A DNA stretch of 42,396 nt. Source: a virus. The stretch covers positions 1 to 42,396 of IMG/VR virus record IMGVR_UViG_3300035681_000043; one strand, written 5' to 3'. Position 1 is the first letter of the stretch. The number at the start of each line of letters is the position of its first letter. The notes under the pieces were generated by a model. It worked only from the letters and a program-made list of their open reading frames with translations, had not been told where the DNA came from and did no database searches. This document shows, in pieces, positions 2,415 through 21,827 of the stretch. The position numbers and the translations under genes were made by a program.

Positions 2415-3138
2415 TGATACAATAATTTTTTAAATCGAAATTTGCGTCTTTAAAGAATAGTCTATAAGCATCAATTGCTCTTTCAACTTTATCTTTACCC
2501 CGCTCTAAGAATTGTGGTGAGCAGTCATATATTCCAATCTTTCTTGTGGTTTTATCTACCGCGATGAATACCATATCCATATTAAAATATGTAGAATAAA
2601 TATATGCTTGACTGTCATAGTTATATTCTTTTGCAGAGTATCTGAACTTATCTATATCTGATGTTGTCTTTAAATCAACTATCAATGATTGTGTATTGTT
2701 CTTTATATCTGCCTTAAGCTTAAACCATTCGCCCATATTAACTAATCCAGGAACTTCATACTCAACATCGATATCTCTAATAAGATCTCTTGTTATATTG
2801 TTTTCCATAACAGCATCTCGTAATAAATTTAAAGAGTCTGCTTCATGCTGTAATAAACACATCTCTCCGTTTGATAATTCTTTGTATTTAGAAGTATTAC
2901 GTGTAGTTGTATCAATTATACGAATCCTATCTAATTTATCTGGTTCTAATATCAATGTGTGAAAATATGAACCTTTAATCAAATTAGGATTGCCTGTTAT
3001 TGGTTGCTTGAATGTTAATGGATCTTTTAATAAGGATCTGATGTCTGAGTTAGATAAGAATTTTTTACCCAGATCTCCATAATAGTCTTCATCATTCTCT
3101 AATCGTTTTAATATCTTTTTAATTTGTTCGTCATCCAT
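2401..3138 (-). CDS. RecE/exonuclease VIII-like PD-(D/E)XK nuclease
   Basis: 245 aa, probable double-strand-end resecting exonuclease paired with the adjacent ERF annealase. Visible features are GSYFHTLILEP (about 56-66, like the GxxxHxxxLEP of RecE C-terminal nucleases), the core KLKADI then IVDLKTT (D...D-x-K type, about 139-158), and YDSQAYIY (about 174-181), matching the QxxxY motif of the Cas4/RecE clan. The next gene upstream ends 2 bases before it. Exonuclease-annealase pairs are a well-known two-component recombination module. Confidence 0.78.
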   Translation of the reverse strand: MDDEQIKKILKRLENDEDYYGDLGKKFLSNSDIRSLLKDPLTFKQPITGNPNLIKGSYFHTLILEPDKLDRIRIIDTTTRNTSKYKELSNGEMCLLQHEADSLNLLRDAVMENNITRDLIRDIDVEYEVPGLVNMGEWFKLKADIKNNTQSLIVDLKTTSDIDKFRYSAKEYNYDSQAYIYSTYFNMDMVFIAVDKTTRKIGIYDCSPQFLERGKDKVERAIDAYRLFFKDANFDLKNYCINETL

Positions 3139-7891: not shown

Positions 7892-8331
7892 AATTTATCT
7901 TTTAAGTGTGCTTTACCAAATTCATAATATTTTTTATAACCTTCAACTGCATCAGCCATTTTGTATTCATCGGGCATGCATTGCGGTGGATCGCAAAAGT
8001 CATCAGAGTGTATAGCAACCGGAACGTTAGCTAATACTTCACGACACTTTTCAATTGTTAAATGATATTTGCCATAACGTCGAGTATATTCAGCACCAAG
8101 AGCTAACATATATTCGTAGCACCATAAGTAATTAGAACGTGATGATCGTACCCATACTGCTGATGGATGATTCATGTGTGTTTTCTTATAGGGTACATCA
8201 TTAGGATTACCAGATAAGTGATGAGCTGTGCAAAGTAATTGAGCAGCTTCTAATACCATTTTAACAACATGCTTCCCGTAGTGCATTCTTGCTGCTTTAA
8301 CCGGGTCTCGATCTAAATAGAATATGTTCAT
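7888..8331 (-). CDS. Conserved phage protein, His/Cys-rich, unknown function
   Basis: 147 aa. Recognisable as a recurrent phage protein type: MNIFYLDRDPVKAARMHYGK, KHVVKMVLEAAQLLCTAHH, THMNHPSAVWVRSSRSNYLW, LGAEYTRRYGKYH. Many conserved His, Arg and Trp residues suggest an enzyme or nucleic acid-binding protein, and relatives are sometimes annotated near DNA glycosylase families; I cannot confirm that from sequence alone. It is the first gene after repeated promoter copy 1 (TAATAT box 24 bases before its ATG), so it heads a leftward transcription unit running to about 7.1 kb or further. Confidence 0.75.
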   Translation of the reverse strand: MNIFYLDRDPVKAARMHYGKHVVKMVLEAAQLLCTAHHLSGNPNDVPYKKTHMNHPSAVWVRSSRSNYLWCYEYMLALGAEYTRRYGKYHLTIEKCREVLANVPVAIHSDDFCDPPQCMPDEYKMADAVEGYKKYYEFGKAHLKDKL

Positions 8332-8355
8332 AGTTAATTTATTTTAGTTACATTA

Positions 8356-8388
8356 ATATTATCTTGTTTGGTTCGTATTCAGACTGTA
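8356..8388 (-). promoter_or_regulatory. Repeated phage promoter, copy 1
   Basis: Minus strand: TACAG, 4 bases, AATACG, 12 bases ending in AGA, TAATAT, then leader AATGTAACTAAAATAA. The -10-like box lies 24 bases before the ATG of the gene at 7888-8331. The promoter overlaps the last codons of the upstream 51-aa gene. Confidence 0.8.
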
Positions 8389-8514
8389 AGAGTAAATCTT
8401 TTTTAAGGAACTATATTGCCTATTATTATTACAATAAGAGCAATCACCATTATTTCTGCACTTATGACTAACTGCTTTACCTCCTGTTTTATTTTGTTTA
8501 ATTGTTCTACTCAT
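8359..8514 (-). CDS. Small Cys/Lys-rich phage protein (51 aa)
   Basis: The start at 8512-8514 (MSRTIKQNKTGGKAVSHKCR) is preferred over a longer reading that would run through the tRNA-like element upstream. NNGDCSYCNNNR gives a CxxC after an earlier Cys, a possible zinc knuckle; the opening MSRTIKQNKTGGKAVSH is a common small phage protein type. The C-terminal ten residues and the stop codon are encoded inside promoter copy 1, a notable case of coding and regulatory DNA sharing bases. Confidence 0.6.
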   Translation of the reverse strand: MSRTIKQNKTGGKAVSHKCRNNGDCSYCNNNRQYSSLKKIYSYSLNTNQTR

Positions 8515-8529
8515 AATAATTAATTTTGG

Positions 8530-8597
8530 AACTAAAAGAGGAATCGAACCCCAAAACCCGTCAGTTGTTACCAATTCAATGGCTACCAAACTTAGTT
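8530..8597 (-). tRNA. Degenerate tRNA-Gln(UUG)-like element
   Basis: Minus strand. A good 7-bp acceptor stem (AACTAAG with TTTAGTT, one G-U) encloses a classical T arm (GGGG-TTCGATT-CCTC). Between them TAGCC, TTGGTAA and ACGGGTTTTG resemble the D region and 5' anticodon arm of tRNA-Gln, with the anticodon TTG following. The 3' half of the anticodon stem and the variable region are missing: the T arm follows almost at once, and the total is only 68 bases. It is either a decayed tRNA or a tRNA-like 3' domain of the structured RNA upstream. Confidence 0.5.
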
Positions 8598-9086
8598 CTT
8601 TTTTGTTAGTGTGCAAACCGGTTATTTTCTTTATATGCACGCTTCAGTTACAACCTTGGATCCGTTCCGGTTAATTTTCACGTAACCCCAGTGACTAACA
8701 TTATTTTAGCACCCTCTATTCGTTATCTAGACCATCACAAGTGATTTCTAATATAACACTTCTAGTAGGGTCACGTAGTAAGAGATGTTCTAAATGTTTG
8801 CACCAGATAGACTGGGACACATTACTACTTGCCGAGAACTCATTTGTGTTGTAGTGTTCATTGTATCTACTCTTTACTGCATTCCTTTCTCAAGGGAACA
8901 ACACATCTACCATTACTGATAGTATCTTTATGTAAATTATTGTGGATTTAAACCACTTACCATTTATTTCTAAATGAGCCATTACAATCGGCATCTTTTA
9001 ACTTACAAAGGTATTCAATGTTTAACCTTTAGCTTCTAGCGGATTATAAGTTCCGGCGCTTTACACAGCTTAGCTATTTTCTTCAT
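8598..9086 (-). ncRNA. Candidate large structured non-coding RNA
   Basis: About 490 bases without a plausible gene, visibly less AT-rich than the surroundings and read in the same direction as its neighbours. Minus-strand hairpins include AAAGGT/ACCTTT (9007-9030) nested inside AACTTA/TAAGTT (9000-9052), CATTTA-GAAA-TAAATG with a GNRA tetraloop (8961-8976), GTGG/CCAC (8942-8956), CTATC/GGTAG (8907-8922), ATCAC/GTGAT (8734-8745), GGTTA/TAACC (8669-8687) and GTGCA/TGCAC (8611-8640). It leads directly into a tRNA-like element. Large phage RNAs next to tRNAs are known (GOLLD and ROOL classes); membership here is not shown. The 5' boundary is uncertain and its promoter is not evident. Confidence 0.55.
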
Positions 9087-9704
9087 TTATGATTCATAAG
9101 GTTTAAATTTAATTCCACGAGCTATTCTATAATTTTCCCACACTATAGCTTGTAATTCATGTGGTAGTAAGTCCAATTTAGCTGCTGCATATTCGTAGCA
9201 TTGTTCAAAGAAACTGTATTGATTATCCGTTAATACTGCTAATTTTTTATCCAATGGTCGAACATCATTATTATTCTGAATAGACGCTGCAATAGCATGG
9301 CGGTCAATAGTTACACCATAAATTTCATTAGGTAACAATATGTTTAAAAAGAATCGCTGTGTTTTATTACCGTTTAATATAGCTACAATTTCTTCTTTAG
9401 AGGTGGCCAACATAATTTTATGTGCTTTTGCTTTGTTAGCGTTAGTTTGGTTATGTGTATCACCTGTAGACAAGAATCTTTCTGCTTGTTTTTTGTTTTC
9501 TTCCCAAGACTTTTGAGGAGATAAAGAGCTGATCAAACCGCAAACGTTTAATAGCGGAGTGTTGTACTTAGCAGAAAGGTGTATAGCAAAGTCGTTAGCG
9601 TTAACATACCATGATTTGCCATAGTCGTTGTGTGCCCACATTTTTAATCTTTTCACTACAATTCTTTTTGACAATTTGTCACCTTTGAAATTTATTGTTT
9701 TCAT
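9087..9704 (-). CDS. Conserved phage protein, possible HhH-type DNA glycosylase-like fold
   Basis: 205 aa. Mostly helical with conserved-looking patches: HNDYGKSWYVNANDFAIHLS, NVCGLISSLSPQKSWEENKK, FFLNILLPNEIYGVTIDRHA, then LLPHELQAIVWENYRIARG. The arrangement of a helical bundle with TIDRHA (Asp in a conserved turn) and a late WENYR is reminiscent of the helix-hairpin-helix glycosylase superfamily, but no HhH hairpin is unambiguous, so treat the role as unknown. It ends immediately before the candidate structured RNA and begins 2 bases after the next upstream gene. Confidence 0.7.
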   Translation of the reverse strand: MKTINFKGDKLSKRIVVKRLKMWAHNDYGKSWYVNANDFAIHLSAKYNTPLLNVCGLISSLSPQKSWEENKKQAERFLSTGDTHNQTNANKAKAHKIMLATSKEEIVAILNGNKTQRFFLNILLPNEIYGVTIDRHAIAASIQNNNDVRPLDKKLAVLTDNQYSFFEQCYEYAAAKLDLLPHELQAIVWENYRIARGIKFKPYES

Positions 9705-20264: not shown

Positions 20265-21827
20265 ATGTCAAATGAGATAGTAAAGAATCTTAGCTTTGGT
20301 AAAGAAGCTAGGGATAATGTATTTGCTGGTATCACCAAATTAACTAGAGCTGTTAGTTCAACATTGGGAGCTGGTGGTAAATGTGTAATGTTAGAAGATG
20401 ATAAAGGTAGACCGCTAATCACTAAGGATGGGGTTACAGTAGCAGATAGTGTTACTCTATTAGATCCTGTAGAAAACATGGGAGCAAGACTTTTAAAAGA
20501 AGCCGCTAGAAAAACAGTTAAAGAAGCTGGAGATGGTACAACAACAGCAACAGTATTAGCGCATGCTATTTTAGAGGAAGCTTACTTAATACAAGATTTG
20601 GTAAGTTCTAGAGAATTAAAGAATGGTATTGAAGAAACTGTAGATTTAGTTGTGGAATACTTAGAGTCTATTAAAGTATCTGTAACGGGTGATATGATAG
20701 ATCATATTGCTACTATATCAACTAACAACGATCCAGTACTTGGTAAAATTATTGGTGATGCTTTTAGAGCTGTTGGTGAAACTGGAATTGTGATGATGGA
20801 ATCATCAGCAAATCCGGAAACCGAAATTGAAATTATTGATGGGGTACAATATGATAAAGGTTTGGTAAATTCAAACTTTATTACAAATCCAAATAAAAGA
20901 GTTGCAGAATTAGAAAACCCATTAGTATTAATCGTAGAGTCACCAGTTGAGTCTATTCGCCAAATACAATCGGTATTAGAATATGTAATAAAAAATAATA
21001 AACCATTATTGATTATAGCAGACATGGAACAAACTGTTTTATCTGCTTTAGCAATGAATAAGGTTAAAGGTAATATTAAAGTTAACGTTATTAATGCACC
21101 TACTTATGGTATCACAAAAAAGGATACACTAACTGATCTTGCTTTATTAACAGGAGCTACCATTATAAATGAAGATCTAGGTGACGATATGGACCTTATA
21201 GATATTGAATGCTTAGGCAGTTGCTTAAAAGCAATTACAGATGATAGCGAAACAATATTACATGTAGGAGAAACTAAACCAGCAGTTCAAGAACTGATTG
21301 ATGAGTTAAATTCACAATTAGCAAAAGCTACTGCTCCAGGAGAAGTAATTAGATTAGAAAAAAGATTAGCAAGGTTATCAGCAAAAGTAGCTGTAGTAAA
21401 AGTAGGTGCTGGTTCTGATTTAGAATTAAAAGAGAAAGCAGATAGAGTTGAAGATGCGATATGTGCAACTAAAGCAGCTATTAAAGAAGGAATTGTTCCA
21501 GGAGGAGGAATTGCTCTTTTAGATGCATCGAATAAAATAAAAGCATTGAACCAAGGATCACTTGCTTTATTAGAAGCTATTAAAGCTCCGTTTAAGACGA
21601 TATTATCTAATGCTGGTATTGATCATCCAAACAAGGATTGGAATCGCTTAGAAGGTCACGGATTGAATGCTGTAACTGGCGAACAAGTTAACATGATAGA
21701 AGCAGGAATTATTGATCCTTTATCTGTTACAAAAAGCGCTTTAAGAAATGCTGCTTCTGTAGCTGTTACGATATTGTCAACTGATTGTATAATTAATAAT
21801 TTAAGAATCAATGAAGGCAATAGGTAA
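20265..21827 (+). CDS. groEL: Phage-encoded chaperonin GroEL
   Basis: 520 aa, slightly shorter than bacterial GroEL (~548). Equatorial, intermediate and apical domains are all recognisable: LITKDGVTVA, GDGTTTATVLAHA with catalytic-type D90 (GroEL D87), PLLIIADMEQ apical segment, KADRVEDAICATKAA with D397 (GroEL D398) and EGIVPGGGIALL. The GroEL Asp52 position appears to be Glu44 (MLEDDKGRPLITKDG), and the C-terminal GGM tail is absent, ending INNLRINEGNR. It overlaps its GroES gene by 17 bases. Likely folds late proteins such as capsid subunits. Confidence 0.95.
   Translation: MSNEIVKNLSFGKEARDNVFAGITKLTRAVSSTLGAGGKCVMLEDDKGRPLITKDGVTVADSVTLLDPVENMGARLLKEAARKTVKEAGDGTTTATVLAHAILEEAYLIQDLVSSRELKNGIEETVDLVVEYLESIKVSVTGDMIDHIATISTNNDPVLGKIIGDAFRAVGETGIVMMESSANPETEIEIIDGVQYDKGLVNSNFITNPNKRVAELENPLVLIVESPVESIRQIQSVLEYVIKNNKPLLIIADMEQTVLSALAMNKVKGNIKVNVINAPTYGITKKDTLTDLALLTGATIINEDLGDDMDLIDIECLGSCLKAITDDSETILHVGETKPAVQELIDELNSQLAKATAPGEVIRLEKRLARLSAKVAVVKVGAGSDLELKEKADRVEDAICATKAAIKEGIVPGGGIALLDASNKIKALNQGSLALLEAIKAPFKTILSNAGIDHPNKDWNRLEGHGLNAVTGEQVNMIEAGIIDPLSVTKSALRNAASVAVTILSTDCIINNLRINEGNR

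Follow-up and report, generated by a model that had tools for sequence, protein, structure and literature searches.

Structured RNA modules arrayed next to a tRNA-like element in a phage genome

A gene-free stretch found between two phage genes, and leading into a tRNA-like sequence, raises the question whether it encodes one large structured RNA, of a known or a new kind, or only hosts hairpins formed by chance. The stretch belongs to a viral DNA of 42,396 nucleotides (IMG/VR record IMGVR_UViG_3300035681_000043), analysed as a whole and called here the window. The original prediction placed a single large RNA at 8598-9086. The boundaries are corrected here to 9076-8529, and the non-coding structured region, encoded on the (-) strand, is resolved into separable modules in the order E1-A-B-T (Table 1), which occur in other orders and combinations in relatives.

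Layout and conservation of the modules

The array is flanked on the 5' side by ORF 9087-9704 (DUF7178) and on the 3' side by a small protein ORF (8362-8514), and sits in a co-directional gene run, oriented on the (-) strand like its neighbours, as had been surmised. The interval 8598-9086 is gene-free as described, since the longest open stretch is 57 codons and each frame includes 8-18 stops. The stretch had also been said to be less AT-rich than its flanks. Its GC content (36.0%) exceeds that of the upstream gene (33.2%) and of positions 8332-8525 (24.7%), but not that of the downstream gene (36.7%).

Table 1. Modules of the array and their parts in the window (positions of the whole stretch).
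Feature	Position	Strand	Remarks
Module E1	9030..9076	(-)	~47-nt three-way-junction RNA
Module A	8706..9028	(-)	323 nt (relatives, 255-508 nt); covariance model and covariation
A, helix P1, loop UAAACAUUGA	9009..9028	(-)	conserved in ~80 members
A, arm V1	8941..8994	(-)	GAAA-tetraloop hairpin and T-loop-like hairpin GUGGUUUAAAUCCAC; match in L196
A, helix CUAUC-AGUAAU-GGUAG	8907..8922	(-)	helix 1; compensatory changes at 6/6 pairs
A, central helix UGUGUUG/CAACACA	8845..8905	(-)	helices 2 and 3; encloses a hairpin and arm Vc
A, hairpin UUCC-CUUGAGAAA-GGAA	8882-8898	(-)	inside the central helix
A, core strand CAACACAAAUGAGUUCUCGGCAAG	8828..8851	(-)	part of the strand is the search bait
A, arm Vd UAGUAA...UUACUA	8776..8827	(-)	swappable cassette; same cassette in L148, L206
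A, 3' domain	8706..8775	(-)	CGUGACCCUACU, arm Ve, AUAGAGGGUGCUAA; helix 5
Module B	8605..8699	(-)	95-nt three-way-junction RNA; near-invariant loop AUAAAGAAWWUAACCGG
Module T	8529..8598	(-)	tRNA-like; acceptor GAACUAA/UUAGUUC; no canonical anticodon arm
T, T-arm GGGG-UUCGAUU-CCUC	8538-8552	(-)

Clean hairpins had been taken as a sign of structure. Single-sequence folding is unimpressive (z = -1.33; 12 of 100 shuffled sequences fold equally well), and relatives were therefore collected; it is their comparison alone that shows the structure to be real, hairpins by themselves being within chance. The units were recognised by comparing relatives of the window's downstream gene; related loci are denoted by L numbers.

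In the trimmed core alignment of module A (45 sequences) 95.6% of the cells are paired, and compensatory changes are found at 18 of 30 pairs. Covariation measures 0.290, against 0.097 +/- 0.007 in shuffled alignments and no more than 0.065 when the partners are slid. The central helix recurs in the compensatory forms GUGCUG/CAGCAC and GUGUAG/CUACAC. Helix P1, at the 5' end, was left out of the count because its spacing is too variable; stem replacements noted by eye, and uncounted, include GUCG/CGAC, CUCA/UGAG, GUGG/CCAC and CCGC/GCGG. The GAAA-tetraloop hairpin reported at 8961-8976 is real, CAUUUA-GAAA-UAAAUG being replaced in L196 by the compensatory CAUCUA-GAAA-UAGAUG. The nested pair drawn at 9000-9052 combines parts of two modules. 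Its inner hairpin (9009-9028) corresponds to helix P1 of A, and the outer pairing joins, without support, a conserved E1 loop to A. The UUCUC tract of the core strand is complementary to the loop UGAGAA, a complementarity that nearly all members retain, with no covariation. The pairing is a candidate pseudoknot, which covariation cannot probe because it is almost invariant.

The 12 members of module B feature compensatory changes at 12 of 22 pairs, and covariation of 0.428 against 0.229 in shuffled alignments; the alignment was fitted to its model, and the figures are hence biased toward structure. The member from L202 was found independently (E 2.3e-14). In E1 (10 aligned homologues) all cells are paired, 5 of 10 pairs are compensatory, and covariation is 0.340 versus 0.137. 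The alignments show A, B and E1 each to be structured RNAs kept by compensatory mutation, and the presence of structured modules in 8529-9076 is practically certain. A decayed coding sequence, or plain intergenic DNA in which the hairpins are fortuitous, would suit the non-significant single-sequence folding, but is refuted by covariation in the alignments of A (45 sequences), B (12) and E1 (10); stops are found in every frame, homology to a decayed gene is excluded, and the chance left to this explanation is negligible.

Other features of the region have been annotated. The protein encoded at 8362-8514 (-), directly after T, is small and basic (51 aa, MSRTIKQNKTGG..CRNNGDCSYC..NR), has homologues in L041, L043, L161, L202 and L232, all carriers of module A or B, and is possibly an RNA-binding partner. 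The repeated motif TGATAATANTAATGTAA has 17 matches versus 3.8 expected, mostly (-), at 8348-8364 and 8373-8387 (-) and, for the others, between 11 and 16 kb. It is preceded by ACAGTCTGAACACGA (4 matches versus 0.67 expected), and the two are likely a phage promoter. A GroEL-like phage chaperonin (PF00118) is encoded at 20265-21827 (+). The terminase is 66% identical to that of an uncultured podovirus and 45% to those of Flavobacterium elemo phages; from these identities, the host is probably a Bacteroidota.

The module A family and its arms

Members of the family have been collected from IMG/VR. An exact-pattern scan with a first bait, CAAATGAGTTCTCNGCAAG, gave 100 stretches, from which 90 distinct RNAs were extracted; every segment is recognised in 70, which measure 255-508 nt (median 326). 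The bait forces invariance of the 19-nt core strand, where conservation is thus partly ascertainment. A second scan, carried out with a different bait, has both variants of the core strand among the matches listed. It also reveals a shorter type II domain, CAACACAGAGG..CUCA..CCUC, in which the 5' and 3' domains present in A are nearly always missing. The core domain is present in at least 143 IMG/VR loci, with at least 89 occurrences of type I, as in A, and at least 63 of the short type II. Single phages may host short-form copies with different arms, two in L170 (10760-11080, (-)) and four in L297 (1960-3700, (+)).

The covariance model R1 scores the window, which belongs to its seed, at 83.3 bits (E 4e-17), and also finds phi14:2 and L007, the latter outside the seed (E 1.6e-8). 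RNA ends in phi14:2 are predicted at AGGUUAAAC and GGGUGCUAA. The CAAATGAGTTCTCNGCAAG pattern has one real match in 84,980 bacterial and archaeal genomes, in a Sphingobacteriales MAG contig (L232); the other six of the seven matches (L227-L231, L233) have no surrounding core and look like chance. R1 similarly matches one of 395 Bacteroidota genomes, the MAG of L232, under stricter filters that may miss weak matches. Distant blastn searches of phage records retrieve beyond noise only phi14:2 (A), phi4:1 and phi17:2 (3' end of A) and Flavobacterium elemo phages (E1), and no match to the short-form domain; phi4:1 and phi17:2 host the 3' domain without the rest of A. An association with homing endonucleases or introns was considered and dropped, as in phi14:2 and phi4:1 the gene adjacent to A corresponds to an unknown PHROG only.

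The arms vary independently of each other. Among 58 A RNAs with all four arms, pairs sharing an arm at 75% identity or more number 6 for V1, 10 for Vc, 12 for Vd and 15 for Ve, and in these pairs any given other arm is also common in 0 or 1 case. The V1 cassette of the window is found at the Vd position in L196 (46 nt, 93% identity), in an arm with a further match in the L169 V1 region. Outside A, L041 has a free-standing copy of the L007 Vd arm, and Vd is absent from L254, L276, L324 and L328. The B and T unit follows A in the window, and precedes it in L007. Sequence comparison shows module A to be an RNA family restricted to phages, in which the core is constant and each of the four arms can be exchanged. 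The arms move from phage to phage and from one position to another independently of each other, and recombination treats modules and arms alike as units. Further conserved non-coding modules are found in the arrays of L007 (4261-4430, GGTGTTATCGTGGGAAACAGCACG), L012 (after T, CGACTCAGGTAGCAGTGAGTTCG) and L014 (before E1, GGTGCTTRTCGCTG).

The window matches none of the 4227 families of Rfam 15. The gathering scan of the 42 kb gave 0 matches (group I and II introns, RNase P RNA, HEARO and others), and the scan of 8300-9200 at E<=5 only tRNA-Sec and Spy1186876 noise. Searches of the literature by terms and by core sequence, with preprints and many subscription papers outside their scope, found no account of the family. 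On the Rfam negative for the window and this search of limited coverage, the family is regarded as new. The original prediction, a structured minus-strand RNA ending at a tRNA-like element and possibly of a new class, is thus borne out by the covariation in three modules and the lack of Rfam matches; its observation holds in essence and is partly confirmed, and its interpretation is partly supported.

The GOLLD cage is a 14-mer RNA, and the ROOL cage is closed. GOLLD is a phage RNA made up of a conserved and a variable region and often encoded near tRNA islands; ROOL, of unknown function, is found near tRNA islands in phages and prophages, and both form cages with kissing loops (PMC12286853). 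Phage-encoded, associated with tRNA islands and of unknown function, they are the RNAs closest to module A in habit, and GOLLD is, like A, a structured RNA. In contrast, A is shorter than GOLLD, with another core and with four arms swapped independently of each other, and ROOL env-120 measures 659 nt and also differs in the core. The idea that the stretch is a divergent GOLLD or ROOL is not upheld: neither GOLLD (RF02032) nor ROOL (RF03087) matches the window at E<=10 or 8300-9200 at E<=5, the ROOL result at E<=10 being weak alone, as no control genome rang. Module A might still be a self-assembling RNA particle, unrelated to these RNAs and similar in working. It is phage-encoded, sometimes close to tRNA or tmRNA genes, and has a multi-helix core, and the complementarity UGAGAA/UUCUCA could also operate between molecules. 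This is quite unlikely, as A is smaller (255-508 nt versus 659 for ROOL env-120 and often more than 800 for GOLLD), its arms are wholly different between members, and no homology was found.

tRNA-like units and the tRNA neighbourhood

The tRNA-like sequence said to follow directly is present at 8598-8529. It combines a paired acceptor stem with a T-arm carrying a TTCRANY loop, and the acceptor covaries in L202 (GAACTAG/CTAGTTC), the middle region being hypervariable among relatives. ARAGORN finds 0 tRNA genes in T, which has no gathering match to tRNA (RF00005); its best Rfam score is 18.2 bits, to tRNA-Sec (gathering 47). Units with constant arms and hypervariable middles are found in L005, L008, L012, L015, L037 and, as about 140 units, in other loci; in L005, L008 and L037 a D-loop hairpin features compensatory changes. 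In Leu-type units the acceptor, D and T arms are constant, and a canonical anticodon arm is missing, by a crude test, from 143 of 219.

The RNAs, tRNA-like and arm-bearing, may be counter-defence decoys that titrate nucleases of the host or immune proteins that sense RNA, a role that would drive the turnover of arms and middle regions. Arms and tRNA-like middles are indeed hypervariable and swapped on constant scaffolds, many Leu-type units lack the canonical anticodon arm, and defences that cleave tRNAs exist (PMC12851939). A decoy, however, needs no strongly constant A core, and this role is rather improbable.

Among known RNAs, tmRNA (RF00023) shares the neighbourhood of the array, and T bears a loose likeness to the tRNA-like domain of tmRNA, limited to 17 nt of the T-arm (12.7 bits). 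Unlike tmRNA, T has neither a reading frame nor an mRNA-like domain and scores below gathering; no tmRNA was found in the window by ARAGORN or Rfam. In mascRNA/menRNA (RF01684) a tRNA-like element made of acceptor and T-arm marks the sites at which RNase P and RNase Z cut a non-coding RNA. The T unit of L202 is weakly similar to it (13.8 bits), but mascRNA/menRNA is a eukaryotic nuclear RNA, not homologous to T. The structured RNA freshwater-1 (RF02979) lies in the phage tRNA array of L270, which also carries the short-form domain; it differs in length (62 nt) and sequence, and was not found in the window.

Within 1 kb of A there are 36 tRNA and tmRNA genes, all of them oriented like A. Ten of the 11 tmRNAs detected near A are on the same strand, 18-752 nt downstream; the phi14:2 tmRNA (L027 4031-4500, by ARAGORN) lies 672 nt downstream of A. 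The density of tRNA plus tmRNA genes is not clearly raised near A (0.22 versus 0.19 per kb farther away), whereas that of tmRNA alone is. No tRNA or tmRNA was detected within 1 kb of 61 of the 89 A loci by ARAGORN, which overlooks tRNA-like units. A starts right after the 3' end of a tRNA or tRNA-like unit in 10 of 84 loci. Type II domains end 4-6 nt 5' of a tRNA or tRNA-like start in 31 of 63 cases, among the matches listed; around random positions a tRNA-like start falls within 12 nt in 13 of 3000. E1 is located directly 5' of A in 9 of 84 relatives, and directly before tRNA or tRNA-like genes in L014, L015, L028 and L037. In L028 (Flavobacterium phage elemoA) the tRNA-Ala annotated after E1 (3054-3129) has an apparent 10-nt anticodon loop (TGGGCAACTG), and is probably non-decoding. 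B is found in relatives before tRNA-like elements of two different kinds.

The fixed distance of 4-6 nt separating the short-form domain from tRNA 5' ends, the adjoining of E1 to tRNA-like genes and the tmRNAs that follow A in several phages would fit modules acting as mere insulators or leaders, which aid folding and maturation of the adjoining genes. Yet A is 255-508 nt long and has a conserved 3' domain of its own, often no tRNA is detected after it, and in L007 it comes after T, not before. A role of this type alone is accordingly unlikely.

A proposed function and its meaning

In the explanation we favour, at a probability of about 0.5, the array is E1-A-B-T, with excision, a core partner and adaptable arms: 8529-9076 (-) would be the non-coding part of a phage transcript carrying four folded modules in a row. 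Marks for cleavage by RNase P and RNase Z would be provided by T and, at other A loci, by the flanking tRNA-like units, tRNAs and tmRNA; cutting there would release from the longer transcript RNAs that are most likely stable. Excision at T is slightly favoured. A Bacteroidota promoter just before A is not enriched (3 of 84; controls 8, 1, 4 and 2), which agrees with A being cut out of a longer transcript. The constant core, located in its short form 4-6 nt ahead of phage tRNA 5' ends, would then engage a partner that is itself conserved and takes part in the maturation of tRNAs or in translation, RNase P being a first guess; this step is tentative. The swappable arms may be what adapts the RNA to partners that vary, host or defence factors for instance, and their being specificity elements is a somewhat stronger suggestion, still short of even odds.

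A broader and more doubtful reading is that Bacteroidota phages pool recombining RNA domains (scaffolds, arms, leaders, tRNA-like caps), much as protein domains recombine. The pseudoknot domain, common to A and to many pre-tRNA leaders, would act at tRNA 5' maturation, and the arms would retarget the RNA against changing host factors.

The data add a large structured RNA family, listed neither in Rfam 15 nor in the literature searched, present in at least about 140 phage loci, in contigs of up to 373 kb and in one cultured phage (Cellulophaga phi14:2). The fixed spacing of the short-form domain from tRNA genes provides a direct, testable link to tRNA maturation. The exchange of arms as cassettes points to domain shuffling as a route of RNA gene evolution, by which viruses may assemble functional RNAs from mixed parts.
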